From positions 1 to 24,947 of IMG/VR virus record IMGVR_UViG_3300042465_002403: 24,947 nucleotides of DNA. One strand, given 5' to 3'. Positions 4,657 through 13,018 of this stretch are shown piece by piece. Numbering within the stretch: the stretch's first letter is position 1; each line of letters begins with the position of its first letter. Below the pieces are notes generated by a model. The model was not told the origin of the DNA, searched no databases, and was given only the letters and a program-made list of their open reading frames with translations. The position numbers and the translations under genes are program-made. The stretch comes from a virus.

Positions 4657-4890
4657 ATGGCATACGAAACAAAACCAGGAGATGTGAGCATCTTCAAAAA
4701 CAACACCGAGAACCCGAAAGCACCGCAGTACACAGGTACGTGCATCGCACCTGATGGAACGACCTACCGCATTTCATTGTGGGTAAAGGAAGGCGCAAAG
4801 GGTAAATTCTTTTCGGGTAGGATGGAAACACCTAACGCACCGAAGTTAGTTGAACCATTTAACTTAGAAACCAATGACCTCCCTTTCTAA
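4657..4890 (+). CDS. Mini-protein with SSB-like C-terminal tail
   Basis: This 77-residue protein has a compact beta-rich core (about residues 8-60, including TYRISLWVKEGAKGKFFSG) and ends in NLETNDLPF. Bacterial single-strand binding proteins end in an acidic peptide finishing DIPF or DLPF, which recruits repair and replication partners. The match in position (very last residues) and composition is good. The core is shorter than a classical OB-fold SSB. It follows the ERF partner by 2 bases and overlaps the next gene by 17 bases. It may bind single-stranded DNA itself or mimic the SSB tail. Confidence 0.75.
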   Translation: MAYETKPGDVSIFKNNTENPKAPQYTGTCIAPDGTTYRISLWVKEGAKGKFFSGRMETPNAPKLVEPFNLETNDLPF

Positions 4891-5164
4891 ATCACTCGAA
4901 CAAGTAGTTGTACCGATAGACAACTATTACGATAACATCCTTTATTTTTCTAAGGGATGGATAGCGCAGCAAGGGCAGTTTACTACCGAGGTACTGCGGT
5001 CTGCATACGAGAGCCAAACGACCTTAATACCAGCAGAGCCGAGAGTTTATGGTGCGGTAGTCAAAGACCTACAAAAGGAAAAGATGATCCAGCACTACGG
5101 TTATACGACGGCGCAAAATAAACAAGCGCATAATCGACCGATAAGTGTTTGGAAAGTGAATTAG
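4874..5164 (+). CDS. Winged-helix-like hypothetical protein
   Basis: This 96-residue protein has a predicted pattern of helices followed by a wing-like C terminus (IQHYGYTTAQNKQAHNRPIS, then VWKVN). That ending resembles small phage proteins whose C terminus reads roughly GR-x-VRVW and which are thought to be winged-helix DNA-binding proteins. The similarity is remembered, not computed. It starts 17 bases inside the SSB-tail gene and is the last gene before the regulatory leader at 5148-5280. A role in replication or recombination regulation would fit. Confidence 0.68.
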   Translation: MTSLSKSLEQVVVPIDNYYDNILYFSKGWIAQQGQFTTEVLRSAYESQTTLIPAEPRVYGAVVKDLQKEKMIQHYGYTTAQNKQAHNRPISVWKVN

Positions 5165-5178
5165 TTTTTGTATTTTTG
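5148..5178 (+). promoter_or_regulatory. Bacteroidota-type promoter before the paired-loop leader
   Basis: TTTG at 5148-5151, inside the end of the upstream gene, is followed after 19 bases by TATTTTTG at 5171-5178. This is a close match to the TTTG/TAnnTTTG consensus. Transcription would start near 5185, almost exactly at the left arm of the hairpin at 5187. Confidence 0.8.
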
Positions 5179-5184
5179 TAAAAG

Positions 5185-5271
5185 TTAATCGCATAGAAGT
5201 AAGAGCCTATGCGATTGACCTAAGTGTTAATCACACAGCCCCCTTTCGCTCTTACCGATTGGGGGCTTTTT
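5185..5271 (+). ncRNA. Candidate short leader RNA or sRNA with two hairpins and complementary loops
   Basis: Between the promoter and the initiator gene lies about 87 bases with two hairpins. Hairpin 1 is a perfect 10-bp stem, AATCGCATAG (5187-5196) with CTATGCGATT (5207-5216), and a 10-base loop. Hairpin 2 is the terminator at 5237-5271. Loop 1 contains GTAAGAGC (5199-5206), the exact complement of GCTCTTAC (5248-5255) in loop 2. In addition, AATCG (5187-5191) is complementary to CGATT (5256-5260), allowing a mutually exclusive fold. The RNA could act in cis as an attenuator or be released as a small RNA. Start and end are inferred. Confidence 0.6.
5237..5271 (+). terminator. Terminator hairpin directly before the initiator gene
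   Basis: AGCCCCC (5237-5243) pairs with GGGGGCT (5261-5267) across a 17-base loop, and T runs to 5271. It lies only about 90 bases after a promoter and 8 bases before the ATG at 5280, so it looks conditional rather than an operon end. Its loop is complementary to the loop of the preceding hairpin. Confidence 0.8.
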
Positions 5272-5279
5272 CATTAAAT

Positions 5280-6011
5280 ATGAAAGACCCAGCATTTTTA
5301 TTTTACAGCAGCGATTGGCTAACTGGTTGCCAATTTATGAGCATGAACGAGCGAGGAGAATATATCACCTTGTTAGCTGCCCAGCATCAAAACGGACACC
5401 TTGACCCCAAAAGGCTTGGGTTTCTTTTGGGTTATGGTTGGGATATGGTTTCGGATATTGTCAAGTCAAAATTCGTTTTAGACGAAAATGGTTTGATTTA
5501 CAATGAGCGTTTAGAGGCAGAAGCAGAGAAGCGTAGCCAATACGCTGATAAGCAGCGCAATAACGGAATGAAAGGTGGCAGACCTAAGAAGGATGAAAAC
5601 CCAAACGAAACCCAAACACAAACCCAACTACAAACCCAAACTAAACCCAAAAATAACCCTACTGAAAATGAAAATGAAAATGAAAATAGAGTTAGAATAG
5701 AAGATAATAAAAAGGTGTGGTTTGATGTTTTTTGGGATAAGTATGAAAAGAAGCAAGACAGCAAGAAGTGTTTGGAAAAATGGATGAAGCTGTCGGATAA
5801 GGAAATCAACGCTGCGCTGGACAAAGTGGAAGCATACGTTAAATCAACTCCCGATGTCACATACCGAAAAAATCCGCTAACTTGGCTCAACGGAAAGTGC
5901 TGGGAAGATGAAATTATTATCCCTACCTTAAACACAAAAATAAGCAACTTTGAAAAAGCAGTAAAAACCGATCTTCACTCAATGATTATTTATGATAACG
6001 ACAACGACTAA
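5280..6011 (+). CDS. Phage replication initiator / replisome organiser (DUF1376-like N terminus)
   Basis: The frame is open from 5259, but that part lies in the terminator hairpin, so the ATG at 5280 is the start (243 residues). Residues 1-80 resemble the DUF1376-like domain of phage replication proteins (PAFLFYSSDWL, then MNERGEYITLL). Residues 105-136 are a low-complexity linker of Gln/Thr and Glu/Asn. Residues about 146-212 form a C-terminal domain common in phage replisome organisers, with FWDKYEKK and PLTWLNGKCWED. Such proteins bind the origin and help load the helicase. The DNA of the linker carries an 11-12 bp repeat array followed by an AT-rich block, as in lambda O. It overlaps the next gene by 20 bases. 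Confidence 0.78.
   Translation: MKDPAFLFYSSDWLTGCQFMSMNERGEYITLLAAQHQNGHLDPKRLGFLLGYGWDMVSDIVKSKFVLDENGLIYNERLEAEAEKRSQYADKQRNNGMKGGRPKKDENPNETQTQTQLQTQTKPKNNPTENENENENRVRIEDNKKVWFDVFWDKYEKKQDSKKCLEKWMKLSDKEINAALDKVEAYVKSTPDVTYRKNPLTWLNGKCWEDEIIIPTLNTKISNFEKAVKTDLHSMIIYDNDND
5597..5652 (+). repeat. Iteron-like array of five AAACCCAAAC repeats (candidate origin)
   Basis: Copies begin at 5597, 5608, 5620, 5632 and 5643; copies 1, 2 and 4 are identical, and copies 3 and 5 differ by two bases and one base. Spacing is 11, 12, 12 and 11 bases, about one helical turn. Because 11 is not a multiple of three, the repeats occupy different reading frames of the initiator gene, so the conserved unit is DNA, not peptide. 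Confidence 0.65.
5664..5715 (+). other. AT-rich block after the repeats (candidate unwinding element)
   Basis: Four tandem GAAAAT units (5664-5687) are followed by a further AT-rich stretch to about 5715, strongly purine-rich on this strand. It directly follows the five AAACCCAAAC repeats. The order iterons, then AT-rich element, inside an initiator gene, is that of the lambda origin. It may instead be a simple-repeat linker encoding Glu-Asn. Confidence 0.5.
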
Positions 6012-6768
6012 CAGCCAAGCGGTGCAAGCCTATCAAGGCAAGCAATGCGCTGAAATGCCACAGCAAGATTTGCTACCCGAAATCCTTAACCAGTACAAAA
6101 TGGTTTGCGCTTACGCTGGGCAGCAAGTAACCAGCGACCAGCATTCACTTAACCTTATAGTGCGTATGATTGAGGCTGACTTGAAAAAGGCACGATGTAC
6201 CATTGACCAGTTTAAGATAGCTGTCAACGAAGGTATGAGGTCTGGAGAGGTATATTCAGCAAACGCACCAGCTACCTATTTGAAATGGGTGTATGCCTAC
6301 TTAGATAAAGTCAAGATGGAACTGGCAGCGCACCGCAACAATCAATCCTTTCAACCGTATGAAATGAGCGAAGCGGAAAAACTAAACACAGCCATTGAGC
6401 ATATCTTAACAATGTACCAAAAGTTCAAAAGCGGTCAGTCCTTTTTGGATGGCGGTAGTGCTGGGTATTTATGGCTTGAAAAGATAGGGCAGATAAATGT
6501 ATCAATAGACGAAAAGGCAGAGATGTTTGAAAAGTCAAAGGATCGAGCCATCGCAGCTATTAAAGCGAAAAGGGATAACGCTGAAAGGTACGAGGCACGG
6601 ACTATTCAATCACTTTTAAACGCTATTGAGCAGCGACCGAAAGACGTACCCGAACTTAGATTTGAGCAGATAAAGATTTGCAGGGATGATTTGTTGAGGC
6701 GGTATTTTAGAGCAAACGAGGTGACCTTTGACTTTTTAAAGCAATGCTATGAAGCAGTCAAAAAATAA
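5992..6768 (+). CDS. Hypothetical replication-region protein, 258 aa
   Basis: This 258-residue soluble, largely helical protein starts 20 bases inside the initiator gene. A conserved-looking aromatic region lies at about residues 95-110 (ATYLKWVYAYLDKV). No Walker motif is visible, so it is not a DnaC-type loader of the usual kind. Its place directly after the initiator and before a nuclease fits a helicase-loading or primosome accessory role, but I do not recognise the family. It overlaps the next gene by 20 bases. Confidence 0.72.
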   Translation: MITTTTNSQAVQAYQGKQCAEMPQQDLLPEILNQYKMVCAYAGQQVTSDQHSLNLIVRMIEADLKKARCTIDQFKIAVNEGMRSGEVYSANAPATYLKWVYAYLDKVKMELAAHRNNQSFQPYEMSEAEKLNTAIEHILTMYQKFKSGQSFLDGGSAGYLWLEKIGQINVSIDEKAEMFEKSKDRAIAAIKAKRDNAERYEARTIQSLLNAIEQRPKDVPELRFEQIKICRDDLLRRYFRANEVTFDFLKQCYEAVKK

Positions 6769-9579: not shown

Positions 9580-10006
9580 AATAATCGAAAGGGTAGCAAT
9601 ATACCGAGGCGTAAGCATCCAGCAAATCTTAGGTAAATCAAGAAAGCAAGAGATAGTAAACGCACGACATGGGGCGCAGTATTTAGTAATGAAGCATTGT
9701 TCTAAGATGAAGCAAGAGGCAATGGCTGCACCTTTTAATCGTGACCGCACTACTCTATTACACGCAAGGGATGCGGTAAATGATTCGCTTGCTATAAACG
9801 ATGGGCAGTTCCGATGGATCAACAATGTAGAACTCGGCAAAGGCTACGGAGATAAAGTCTTAGAAAAGCTATTTGCTGTAAAGGAGTGTATGGAAAAAGG
9901 ATATACTGGCGAGGCAAAGAAGATAGTAAACGATGCGATTGAGTTACGCCAATCGTTTCTTGACAGCTTGGAGGAGTTGAAATTGCAACAACTAAACGCT
10001 AAGTAA
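9566..10006 (+). CDS. DnaA domain IV-like DNA-binding protein
   Basis: The ATG at 9566 is chosen over the longer open frame because residues upstream only shadow the neighbouring gene. The 146-residue product starts with the pattern of DnaA domain IV: VAIYRGVSIQQILGKSRKQE, a helix with NARHGAQYLVM (32-42), and NRDRTTLLHARDAV (58-71), close to the DnaA signature DHTTVLHA. No AAA+ domain is present, so it is a stand-alone box-binding domain with a helical C-terminal extension. It may bind DnaA boxes at the phage or host origin, competing with host DnaA or regulating transcription. Confidence 0.85.
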   Translation: MTPNEIIERVAIYRGVSIQQILGKSRKQEIVNARHGAQYLVMKHCSKMKQEAMAAPFNRDRTTLLHARDAVNDSLAINDGQFRWINNVELGKGYGDKVLEKLFAVKECMEKGYTGEAKKIVNDAIELRQSFLDSLEELKLQQLNAK

Positions 10007-10326: not shown

Positions 10327-10889
10327 AAATCATAATGAATCTATATGATTCAGGAGAGTTAATGAAGGCTTGCAAGTCAATCGGCAGCACTTACCATGAC
10401 GATTTATGTCAGGAGGTGCTGCTTTGTCTTTTTGAGAAACCCGAGGCAAAGATATTAGAGGCACACGAAAAGGGGTATTTTAGATTTTACGTTGTGAGGA
10501 TCGTTATGAACTTTGCTAACTCTAAAAACTCCAGCTTTCACAAGAAGTACCGAAATCGTGACGAGGTTATCCCGATAGACCACCTCGGGCAAGTAGGCGA
10601 GATGCCAGTCGAATCTTATCTTGAATCGCATGGAATAGACTTAACTGCTGGGGAATACGACTACCAAAAGGATTTAGACACGCAGGGGAAGATAGACCGA
10701 TTAGAGGTGGCGTATTTAAGATTAAACAATGAAAGTGAGTTTCCCTACGAACAAAAACTGCTTGACTTACATTTAACACTAAGGAACAAAAGAGCGGTCA
10801 GCCGATTGACCGGGATACCTTATCGCACCGTTTGTCACAATTTAGACACAATCTATAAATCTTTGAAAGATGCAGCACTTAATTATTAG
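10314..10889 (+). CDS. Sigma-70-like phage transcription factor
   Basis: The product, about 191 residues, has a region 2-like segment (DDLCQEVLLCLFEKPEAK, from about residue 29, then FRFYVVRIVMNF) and a C-terminal region 4-like helix-turn-helix (NKRAVSRLTGIPYRTVCHNL). This two-part layout matches sigma-like proteins of Bacteroidota phages, which may switch on late genes. The start is uncertain: TTG 10296, GTG 10314 or ATG 10335. GTG is preferred because it keeps the N-terminal helix (ARQIIMNLYDSGELMKA). A perfect hairpin covers this area. The C terminus overlaps the next gene by 20 bases. Confidence 0.75.
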   Translation: MKARQIIMNLYDSGELMKACKSIGSTYHDDLCQEVLLCLFEKPEAKILEAHEKGYFRFYVVRIVMNFANSKNSSFHKKYRNRDEVIPIDHLGQVGEMPVESYLESHGIDLTAGEYDYQKDLDTQGKIDRLEVAYLRLNNESEFPYEQKLLDLHLTLRNKRAVSRLTGIPYRTVCHNLDTIYKSLKDAALNY

Positions 10890-11393: not shown

Positions 11394-11490
11394 TACGCTG
11401 GAGGCTATCTGCGACACGGAGGTAGATAATGCGTACGAAGTAAAACAAAAGCTAATCGATAAAATTAGCGAATTAATAGACAAACTATGA
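11350..11490 (+). CDS. Small hypothetical helical protein, 46 aa
   Basis: This short frame begins at ATG 11350 inside the previous gene and ends at TGA 11488-11490, overlapping the ParB-like start by ATGA. It reads MSPSEAANVIQILTNTLEAI, then an acidic linker and KLIDKISELIDKL, an amphipathic helix. Continuous coding from the upstream gene to the ParB-like gene would otherwise leave a 93-base gap, which supports it. Function unknown. Confidence 0.6.
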   Translation: MSPSEAANVIQILTNTLEAICDTEVDNAYEVKQKLIDKISELIDKL

Positions 11491-12077
11491 CGACAACACC
11501 CATTAACAAAATCAAATCGAACCCCAATAATCCAAGGGTAATAAAAGACGAAAAGTTTAAAAAGCTGGTGCAGTCTTTAAAAGACCTACCCGAAATGGCG
11601 CAAGTGCGACCGATAGTAGTCAATCAAGATATGATTGTATTAGGTGGTAATATGAGGCTAAAGGCAATGAAAGAAGCAGGCTGGAAGGAAGCACCAGTAG
11701 CCGTAGTGGATTGGGATGAGGACAAACAAAGGCAGTTTATCATTAAGGACAACGTAGGATTCGGTGAGTGGGATTGGGATATGTTAGCCAACGAGTGGGA
11801 TGCGGAGAGTTTAGGTGAGTGGGGGTTAGATGTTGGCGGCTTTGATGTAAACGCATCAGACATGACTGATGAATTTAGTTTACCTGATGGCGACAAAGCA
11901 CCATTTCAGCAAATGACTTTTACACTTGCGGATGAACAAGCGATGCAAATACAAAACGCAATAGCTGATATAAAAGCCACAGAAGAATACAAGTACGCTG
12001 AAACTATGGGCAACGAGAACAGCAATGGAAATGCTTTGTATTTAATTGTAATGCAATGGGCAGAGCAAAGGAAATAA
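11487..12077 (+). CDS. ParB/sulfiredoxin-like nuclease-domain protein
   Basis: This 196-residue protein has an N-terminal ParB-like domain (about residues 3-95): IKSNPNNPR (9-17), RPIVVNQDMIVLGGNMRLKA (41-60) and a following strand (PVAVVDWDED). GGNMRLKA replaces the GERR motif of chromosomal ParB. Residues about 125-196 form an acidic to helical C-terminal part that I do not recognise. In phages such domains occur with DNA-modification enzymes and may act as NTP-dependent switches or nucleases. Here the next gene, overlapping by 22 bases, is a Mom-like enzyme. Confidence 0.85.
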   Translation: MTTTPINKIKSNPNNPRVIKDEKFKKLVQSLKDLPEMAQVRPIVVNQDMIVLGGNMRLKAMKEAGWKEAPVAVVDWDEDKQRQFIIKDNVGFGEWDWDMLANEWDAESLGEWGLDVGGFDVNASDMTDEFSLPDGDKAPFQQMTFTLADEQAMQIQNAIADIKATEEYKYAETMGNENSNGNALYLIVMQWAEQRK

Positions 12078-12721
12078 TCGTTAAGGTAATACCTGCAAAG
12101 ATTGCTAATGAGTTTGTAAAGCAACATCATTATTCAGGTAAAGTTGTGCCTAATTCAACCTTACATTTTGGTTGCTTTTTGGATGACAAGTTGCATGGCG
12201 TTATGAGTTACGGTCCAAGTATTAACAAAAAAGGAACAATAAATTTAGTAGAAGGAACTGGATGGAATGAATTTATTGAATTAAATAGAATGGCTTTTGA
12301 CAATTACCTGCCTAAATACTCTGAAAGCAGGTGCATAGCAATTAGCATTAGGTTAATAAAAAAACATGCTCCTCAAATAAAATGGGTTATTAGCTTTGCC
12401 GATGGTACTCAATGCGGTGATGGTACAATTTATAGAGCAAGCGGATTTAGTTTAGTAGGCATAGTTGACAATACCTCATTGCGAATTAATCCAAAAAATG
12501 GAGAAGCTATTCATGTAATACAAGCTCATCATTTAAAAATAAGCAGCGAGTTTAGAGGGTGGAAGGCATTTGAAGGTAAGCAATTAAAGTATATCTATTT
12601 AATTGACAAGACTTGCAAGATAAATATACCAATAATGCCATTTAGTAAAATAGACGAGCTTGGAGCTGGTATGTATAAAGGAAAGAAAGTATCTTTGGCA
12701 GACAGAAAACAAACAACATGA
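12056..12721 (+). CDS. mom: Mom-like adenine-modification protein (GNAT fold)
   Basis: This 221-residue protein carries the marks I associate with phage Mu Mom: HHYSG (24-28), ELNRM (75-79), ESR (90-92), VISFADG (111-117) and GTIYRASGF (123-131). Mom proteins have an acetyltransferase-like fold and convert adenine in DNA to a carbamoylmethyl form that blocks many restriction enzymes. The start overlaps the ParB-like gene by 22 bases. The gene appears clearly more AT-rich than flanking genes, a sign of transfer. No Com-like regulator is recognised nearby. Residues 180-221 form a basic C-terminal extension. Confidence 0.83.
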   Translation: MGRAKEIIVKVIPAKIANEFVKQHHYSGKVVPNSTLHFGCFLDDKLHGVMSYGPSINKKGTINLVEGTGWNEFIELNRMAFDNYLPKYSESRCIAISIRLIKKHAPQIKWVISFADGTQCGDGTIYRASGFSLVGIVDNTSLRINPKNGEAIHVIQAHHLKISSEFRGWKAFEGKQLKYIYLIDKTCKINIPIMPFSKIDELGAGMYKGKKVSLADRKQTT

Positions 12722-12933
12722 AAACGGGAATTTTTGCATACGCCAAAGAGCATTACTTAAATGGAAAATATATTGGCTCCACTATTAGCGAAACACCTGA
12801 CCGAGACATTACTGGTTACGACGGAAGGCAAAACCATTTGGCTAAAGAAAAAATAATGTTAGAGAAAAAAGTTATTAAAGCAGGTCAACAATATCAAACT
12901 ATTTTAATACCTTTAAGCGGCAGACAAAAATGA
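12718..12933 (+). CDS. Hypothetical protein, 71 aa, next to mom
   Basis: This basic protein of 71 residues starts in an ATGA overlap with the Mom-like gene. It contains KYIGSTISETPDRDITGYDG and a C-terminal basic segment (PLSGRQK). It shares the AT-rich look of mom and may have moved with it. It has no zinc-finger cysteines, so it is not a Com homologue. Function unknown. It ends 11 bases before the tRNA. Confidence 0.62.
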   Translation: MKTGIFAYAKEHYLNGKYIGSTISETPDRDITGYDGRQNHLAKEKIMLEKKVIKAGQQYQTILIPLSGRQK

Positions 12934-12944
12934 TTGCAAAATAT

Positions 12945-13018
12945 GCGGCAGTAGCTCACTTGGGAGAGCGCTTGGCTTCCAGCCAAGAGGGGGCGTTCGA
13001 TGCGACCGTGCCGCTCCA
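12945..13018 (+). tRNA. tRNA-Gly(UCC), slightly imperfect
   Basis: The sequence folds as a tRNA. The acceptor strand GCGGCAG pairs with GTGCCGC except for a G-G mismatch at the seventh pair. The D arm is GCTC/GAGC. The anticodon arm is CTTGG/CCAAG with loop CTTCCAG, giving anticodon TCC. The T arm has loop TTCGATG and a stem (GGGCG/CGACC) with one central mismatch. The 3' CCA is encoded, and the variable loop is only about 3 bases. The anticodon reads GGA/GGG glycine codons. The mismatches suggest a decaying or specialised tRNA. Confidence 0.72.

Follow-up and report, generated by a model that had tools for sequence, protein, structure and literature searches.

A promoter-linked leader RNA with complementary hairpin and terminator loops, probably an uncatalogued brake on DNA replication in Bacteroidetes phages

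The leader and its setting

The window analysed here is an entire 24,947-base IMG/VR virus record, which encodes a terminase (phrog_5653), an ERF-type annealing protein (PF04404) and an endolysin. A leader occupies the space between a gene of unassigned function and a gene for a replication initiator or primosomal protein (Table 1). Elsewhere in the window, a gene for a Mom-like DNA modification protein (12056-12721; phrog_1384) lies directly 3' of a ParB-like / methyltransferase-like gene (11487-12077), and the two possibly form a DNA modification cassette. A single tRNA-Gly (TCC) gene (12945-13018) is located shortly before the terminase region.

A first-pass annotation of this DNA had described a TTTG-N19-TATTTTTG promoter, a perfect 10-bp hairpin and a terminator ending 8 bases before the initiator ATG, and all three were confirmed. 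Being of the Bacteroidetes type, the promoter escaped a sigma-70 scan of the window; transcription probably starts near 5184. The perfect stem of hairpin 1 (5187-5216), borne out by both sequence and fold, extends to 13 pairs. In the terminator, the arms AGCCCCC (5237-5243) and GGGGGCT (5261-5267) enclose an inner collar, TCG/CGA (5246-5248 with 5256-5258), and are followed by a T run (5267-5271). The 88-nt RNA is predicted to fold at -37.7 kcal/mol, compared to -17.1 +/- 2.9 for shuffles (z = -7.15), and the hairpin 1 pattern occurred in none of the window shuffles. The 8-bp complementarity of the two loops, likewise noted earlier, is exact: GTAAGAGC lies in loop 1, its complement GCTCTTAC in that of the terminator. 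Each of these sequences occurs once on the plus strand of the window, and no full 8-mer complement of either loop, that is, no other target, was found elsewhere in the window.

Table 1. Coordinates of the leader, its flanking genes and related features at other loci
Locus	Feature	Position	Strand	Evidence or remark
Window	Upstream gene, function unassigned	4874-5164	+	3' end overlaps the promoter
Window	Bacteroidetes-type promoter	5148-5178	+	Direct reading; -33 TTTG 5148-5151, 19-nt spacer, -7 TATTTTTG 5171-5178
Window	Hairpin 1	5184-5219	+	Fold; compensated stem changes among relatives; arms 5184-5196 / 5207-5219, loop 5197-5206
Window	Loop-1 kissing sequence GTAAGAGC	5199-5206	+	Complementarity preserved via compensated changes
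Window	Small middle hairpin GTGT/ACAC, in linker	5224-5236	+	Fold
Window	Intrinsic terminator	5237-5271	+	Terminator scan, fold; kept in all relatives
Window	Terminator-loop kissing sequence GCTCTTAC	5248-5255	+	
Window	Replication initiator / primosomal protein gene, 243 aa	5280-6011	+	phrog_9327 (E 5e-24), phrog_270, weak DUF1376
L053	Leader of HNH homing-endonuclease gene	6464-6545		Loops GTCGTCG or GAGTCGCAG in these four leaders
L064	Leader of HNH homing-endonuclease gene	6469-6543		
L177	Leader of HNH homing-endonuclease gene	10462-10507		
L192	Leader of HNH homing-endonuclease gene	11676-11754		
L045	Protein of about 62-70 aa	586-783		
L050	Protein of about 62-70 aa	2775-2978		
L059	Protein of about 62-70 aa	9351-9557		
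L093	Protein of about 62-70 aa	2710-2919		
L099	Protein of about 62-70 aa	3135-3320		
L013	Protein of about 62-70 aa	2477-2677		

Compensated changes among related leaders

In IMG/VR, the leader recurs in the window-type relatives, with the promoter, the terminator and the spacing to the ATG preserved and the -7 box present in all of them. Three loop pairs are represented: GTAAGAGC/GCTCTTAC in the window and L020, GTCGCAGT/ACTGCGAC in L002-L004, and ATGCGAGT/GCTCGCAT in L005, L007, L021 and L029. Every loop change in the close relatives is compensated. In the loop-loop helix of this family, four of the eight pairs show changes on both sides while all remain standard pairs (100% paired), and hairpin 1 adds five further pairs with both-side changes; when the 3' partners were slid as a control, only 0-2 such pairs remained. 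Cognate loop pairs are predicted to form at -9 to -14 kcal/mol, as opposed to only -1.6 to -3.6 for the six cross-type pairs tested. The small middle hairpin seems, on weak support, to recur with other letters (GTTAG..CTAAC in L005-type relatives, GGTTT..AAACC in family A, see below). An alternative pairing of AATCG with CGATT, which the first-pass annotation had set against hairpin 1, did not survive the comparison: L005-type relatives lack it, and in L002-L004 it is broken (AATCG vs CTCGTT).

The loops of the window and of L002-L004 share 50% identity, compared to 96-97% for the initiator gene and 85-92% for the upstream gene. The loops change faster than their surroundings, and their compensation is perfect, which reflects either selection on pairing combined with turnover of specificity or an exchange of alleles. 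The same RNA precedes different initiators (L020, L005) and follows different upstream genes (L005, L029), and thus the leader moves as a module.

Loci that were not selected by their initiator were collected by scanning IMG/VR with a terminator and linker pattern, AAACCNAAGCCAGN{12,26}CTGGCTTTTT, in which the loops were left free. This yielded family A, with 40 real members, 27 of them distinct, and three loop types that are always complementary (GTAGGAG/CTCCTAC, GTGGTAG/CTACCAC and GTGAGAG/CTCTCAC). Both-side changes were detected in three of the seven loop-loop pairs (100% paired), nine of the 12 pairs of hairpin 1 and all three pairs of the terminator-loop collar. A second subfamily, family B, was selected by the terminator-loop collar and includes four loop types, all compensated, with both-side changes in three of the eight loop-loop pairs (again 100% paired); in its outer terminator stem, the letters differ and the folding is retained. 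The terminator stem of family A and the collar of family B are fixed by the search patterns, so that their invariance proves nothing. Counted over whole structures, the pairs changed on both sides number 11 in the window family, 15 in family A (2-7 for its slid structures) and three in family B, against 0-7 in the slid controls. These comparative data show that the pairing is under selection rather than a product of chance. Relatives lacking both compensated loops and the terminator would have refuted the earlier annotation; the loops in fact compensate in several independent families and the terminator is retained, an outcome in its favour.

Hypervariability of the loops was considered as a general rule and rejected, given that no more than three loop types occur in family A; the stem of hairpin 1 in this family is more variable than the loops. 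The loop pairs of the three types are nearly equal in pairing energy (-9.1 to -9.3 kcal/mol).

The family A leaders stand in a constant position. The ATG follows the T run by 9-15 nt in 39 of the 40 members and by 2 nt in the remaining one, a truncated contig. At 27 loci, the next gene is a replication initiator, and these initiators have several unrelated N-terminal parts, namely, Lin1244_N (PF14297), HTH_36 (PF13730) and a DnaA-like replisome organiser (phrog_6251). A further 11 loci have one small frame first and then, no more than about 350 nt away, the beginning of an initiator motif. Every one of the 38 testable loci thus has an initiator as its first or second downstream gene; the other two contigs end too early. 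The -7 box has the form TAnnTTTG in 28 of the 40 members, compared to 3.3% of random stretches, and the looser form TAnnTT[TG] in all 40. The link to replication is strongly supported, because the RNA pattern, used by itself as the query, retrieved loci with initiators of several unrelated types. A covariance model (R2) gave no match among 395 Bacteroidota genomes, a result that carries no information without a positive control.

Spread of the architecture among Bacteroidetes phages

About 100 loci (1.3 Mb) surrounding distant relatives of the initiator were scanned with a script for a hairpin followed by a terminator, the two loops being complementary over 7 nt or more. There were 35 instances with TAnnTTTG just upstream, compared to 3-5 in second-order Markov copies, and 21 that also had TTG at -33, compared to 0-1. 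When no promoter was required, the excess was only slight (402 instances vs about 320), and hence the signal is carried by the promoter-linked class. Matches of at least 7 nt between loops were observed 16 times, compared to 3.4 when leaders were paired with the terminator loops of other leaders. The intergenic set consists of about 20 leaders that are unrelated in their letters, with the ATG mostly 8-50 nt behind the terminator; altogether, about 25 different loop pairs were found in Bacteroidetes phages.

A search of cultured phages with the leader itself (blastn) gave only weak, unrelated matches, and the cultured examples surfaced only through protein neighbours. Tenacibaculum phage JQ has a leader with a 10-bp loop pairing and a less typical TATATTAG box (35960-36051), which precedes a small gene and the initiator. 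Flavobacterium phage mumin9-1, accession MN812224, has one leader (GTGGAACG, 12714-12808) before an operon consisting of a small gene, a helicase and a primase, and a second one (GTCGTCG, 11676-11754) before an HNH endonuclease; Flavobacterium phage snusmum6-1, accession MN812234, has both of these and a third leader before a helicase (9722-9808, GCTTCGAC). The mumin leader and that of L011 are recognisably homologous, yet their loops pair through GTGGAACG and GTGAGATGC. In phages with several leaders, the loop pair is different in each. No leader was found near the initiators of P. gingivalis phage005 and Flavobacterium phage 1/32, and no promoter-linked instance was found in Cellulophaga phi46:1 or Nonlabens P12024S.

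The same kind of leader thus stands before initiator genes, helicase/primase operons, and HNH or GIY-YIG endonuclease genes. As HNH homing-endonuclease genes carry the same leader type (Table 1), the device is not specific to replication and may travel with selfish genes.

In many of the phages of this sample, a protein of about 62-70 aa, in several cases starting with MIYKF, is encoded between the leader and the initiator (Table 1); none of these proteins had a confident Pfam or PHROG match. Before another initiator, L012 (2937-3045) contains interleaved complementary segments, CGACTAAAATGA/TCATTTTAGTCG and TTGCCC/GGGCAA, directly 3' of a TATATTTG box, which resemble a pseudoknot of another kind that lacks a T run.

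Candidate mechanism, alternatives and known systems

The reading that we favour, with a probability of about 0.58, is that the leader is a transcription attenuator for replication genes, with the choice between ON and OFF made through the loop-loop helix. The layout fits: a promoter, a leader without a gene of its own and an intrinsic terminator precede the gene to be controlled. A promoter does not fit between the terminator and the ATG, from which it follows directly that expression of the initiator gene depends on read-through by RNA polymerase. Transcription would begin near 5184, with hairpin 1 forming first and exposing its loop; the terminator, which is transcribed some 40 nt further on, would present the complementary loop. 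We infer that read-through is set by the loop-loop helix as the conserved functional element. In what is the most likely wiring, pairing in cis during the emergence of the terminator would hinder its closure (ON), and terminated 88-nt RNAs, once accumulated, would act as competitors in trans by way of these loops, so that termination resumes (OFF). In the earlier interpretation of the leader as an attenuator or regulatory RNA that times replication, the connection with replication held up, whereas the AATCG/CGATT alternative did not, and the device also precedes genes other than initiators.

The trans step, type-specific feedback by the terminated RNA of about 88 nt, is put forward tentatively and by analogy. 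Among the RNAs known here, only the leader itself has the complementarity required, and its terminated product could therefore act in trans on new transcripts; against this, a loop-loop helix formed in cis in the finished RNA would mask both loops and weaken any action in trans. If the wiring is true, it would give self-limiting expression along with loop-type-specific exclusion between phages. The switching of loop types among near-identical phages resembles incompatibility or immunity groups such as those of IncK plasmids (PMC10724649). It is conceivable, if somewhat doubtful, that Bacteroidetes phages possess a self-recognising RNA immunity, in which a short RNA shuts off the replication operon of phages with the same loop pair; the loop types would then be incompatibility groups under diversifying selection.

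Among the alternatives, a free-standing phage sRNA gene that acts elsewhere is unlikely but fares best. Under this explanation, the pairing would provide compactness and nuclease resistance, and the downstream gene would be expressed by unregulated, leaky read-through. Consistent with it, the leader is a complete promoter-terminator unit that lacks an open frame and folds strongly, and the same RNA family precedes unrelated genes, including small ORFs and endonucleases. A free sRNA leaves unexplained, however, why all 38 testable family A loci precede initiators, mostly with the ATG 9-15 nt behind, and the loop 8-mers lack another full complement in the window. A separate RNA transcribed from the opposite strand that would bind hairpin 1, comparable to the control in pT181 or IncI plasmids, is much less probable, even though the position in an initiator leader and the specificity determined by a loop match IncK plasmids (PMC10724649). 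There is no minus-strand TAnnTTTG (the Bacteroidetes -7 box) between 5150 and 5654 of the window, and the nearest one, at 5655, lies far downstream and has no matching -33 box; a minus-strand antisense RNA was rejected because no promoter for it is present over the leader. About as improbable is an element acting at the DNA level, in which the inverted repeats would be origin hairpins or the binding site of a regulator: the repeat is perfect and adjoins the initiator, but the letters of hairpin 1 and the loops vary freely while the pairing, including G-U, is preserved, the promoter and T run have a fixed polarity, and the leader also precedes endonuclease genes. Two mutually complementary, covarying loops could also pair between molecules, as expected of a structural RNA that multimerises like the packaging RNA of phi29; this is very improbable, as the location before replication genes and a terminator hairpin as the partner do not suggest packaging, and several different copies occur per genome. 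Chance complementarity within an ordinary terminator, although loop matches of 7-8 nt do arise at a low rate, can be dismissed in view of the enrichment over Markov copies and is refuted by the compensated changes in several families.

To our knowledge, control of phage replication by short leader RNAs is known mainly from the enterobacterial phages P4 and P1, and also from plasmids. Heteroimmune relatives of P4 show compensated changes. The C4 antisense RNA of P1/P7 (RF01695) and IsrK are short RNAs that share a promoter with their target and whose loop specificity swaps between phages; C4 acts on translation of the antirepressor. The repZ pseudoknot of ColIb-P9, a plasmid of the IncI family, controls translation, with an antisense RNA counteracting it. 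The phage leader is like C4 in consisting of a short RNA made from the promoter of its target, with loop specificity that swaps, and differs in that C4 targets antirepressor translation; with repZ, which also precedes an initiator gene, it shares a first-hairpin loop that pairs with leader sequence further 3', whereas repZ is controlled at the level of translation, opposed by antisense RNA and devoid of a terminator.

The logic of the attenuator and its feedback appears, by analogy, closest to pT181 and P4. In satellite phage P4, an RNA derived from the leader stops transcription before the replication genes (PMC4825925). As in the P4 CI RNA (seqA/seqB/seqC), factor and complementary target lie within one leader before replication genes, where short complementarity leads to premature termination (PMC4825925), and in the phage leader specificity is switched by compensated change. 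Unlike the leader described here, the P4 RNA is cut out by processing and targets separate upstream and downstream sites; in the phage leader, the partner is the terminator's own loop, promoter and terminator are its own, and no sequence match exists. That an anti-terminator, a terminator and a kissing RNA can work together is shown by pT181, in which terminator sequence is sequestered by an upstream hairpin (ON) and then set free by a kissing RNA (OFF) (PMC4878617). The repC leader of pT181 is similar in preceding an initiator, in its intrinsic terminator, in an upstream hairpin that pairs with parts of the terminator and in the kissing start (PMC4878617), but it depends on a separate countertranscript and pairs the 5' arm of the terminator, whereas the phage leader pairs loop with loop. 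In the IncI-family/IncK plasmids, incompatibility is determined by the letters of a loop (PMC10724649).

None of the 4227 families of Rfam 15 matched the window or 12 related loci at the gathering threshold, the weak matches being at chance level; P4 CI RNA and C4 antisense RNA (RF01695) were found neither at the threshold nor among the weak matches. In the literature, of which coverage was partial, no description of such a leader was found for Bacteroidetes phages. The parts are of a known kind; what is new is that the terminator loop serves as the partner, that loop pairs turn over and that the leader is spread across unrelated replication genes. The leader is probably an uncatalogued RNA brake on phage DNA replication. 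The device is common across a phage group that has received little study; it is missing from Rfam, its letters changing while the architecture stays, and its presence in cultured Flavobacterium and Tenacibaculum phages makes it testable. It would, in addition, be a natural source of some 25 different kissing-loop terminator pairs.

The kissing sequences are biased in composition, one strand usually being purine-rich and starting with GT (GTAGGA, GTGAGA, GTGGAA, GTCGGA, GTAAGA). This bias is common to leaders without other similarity, for example, those at 5199-5206 of the window, 10178-10258 of L151 and 6180-6260 of L060.
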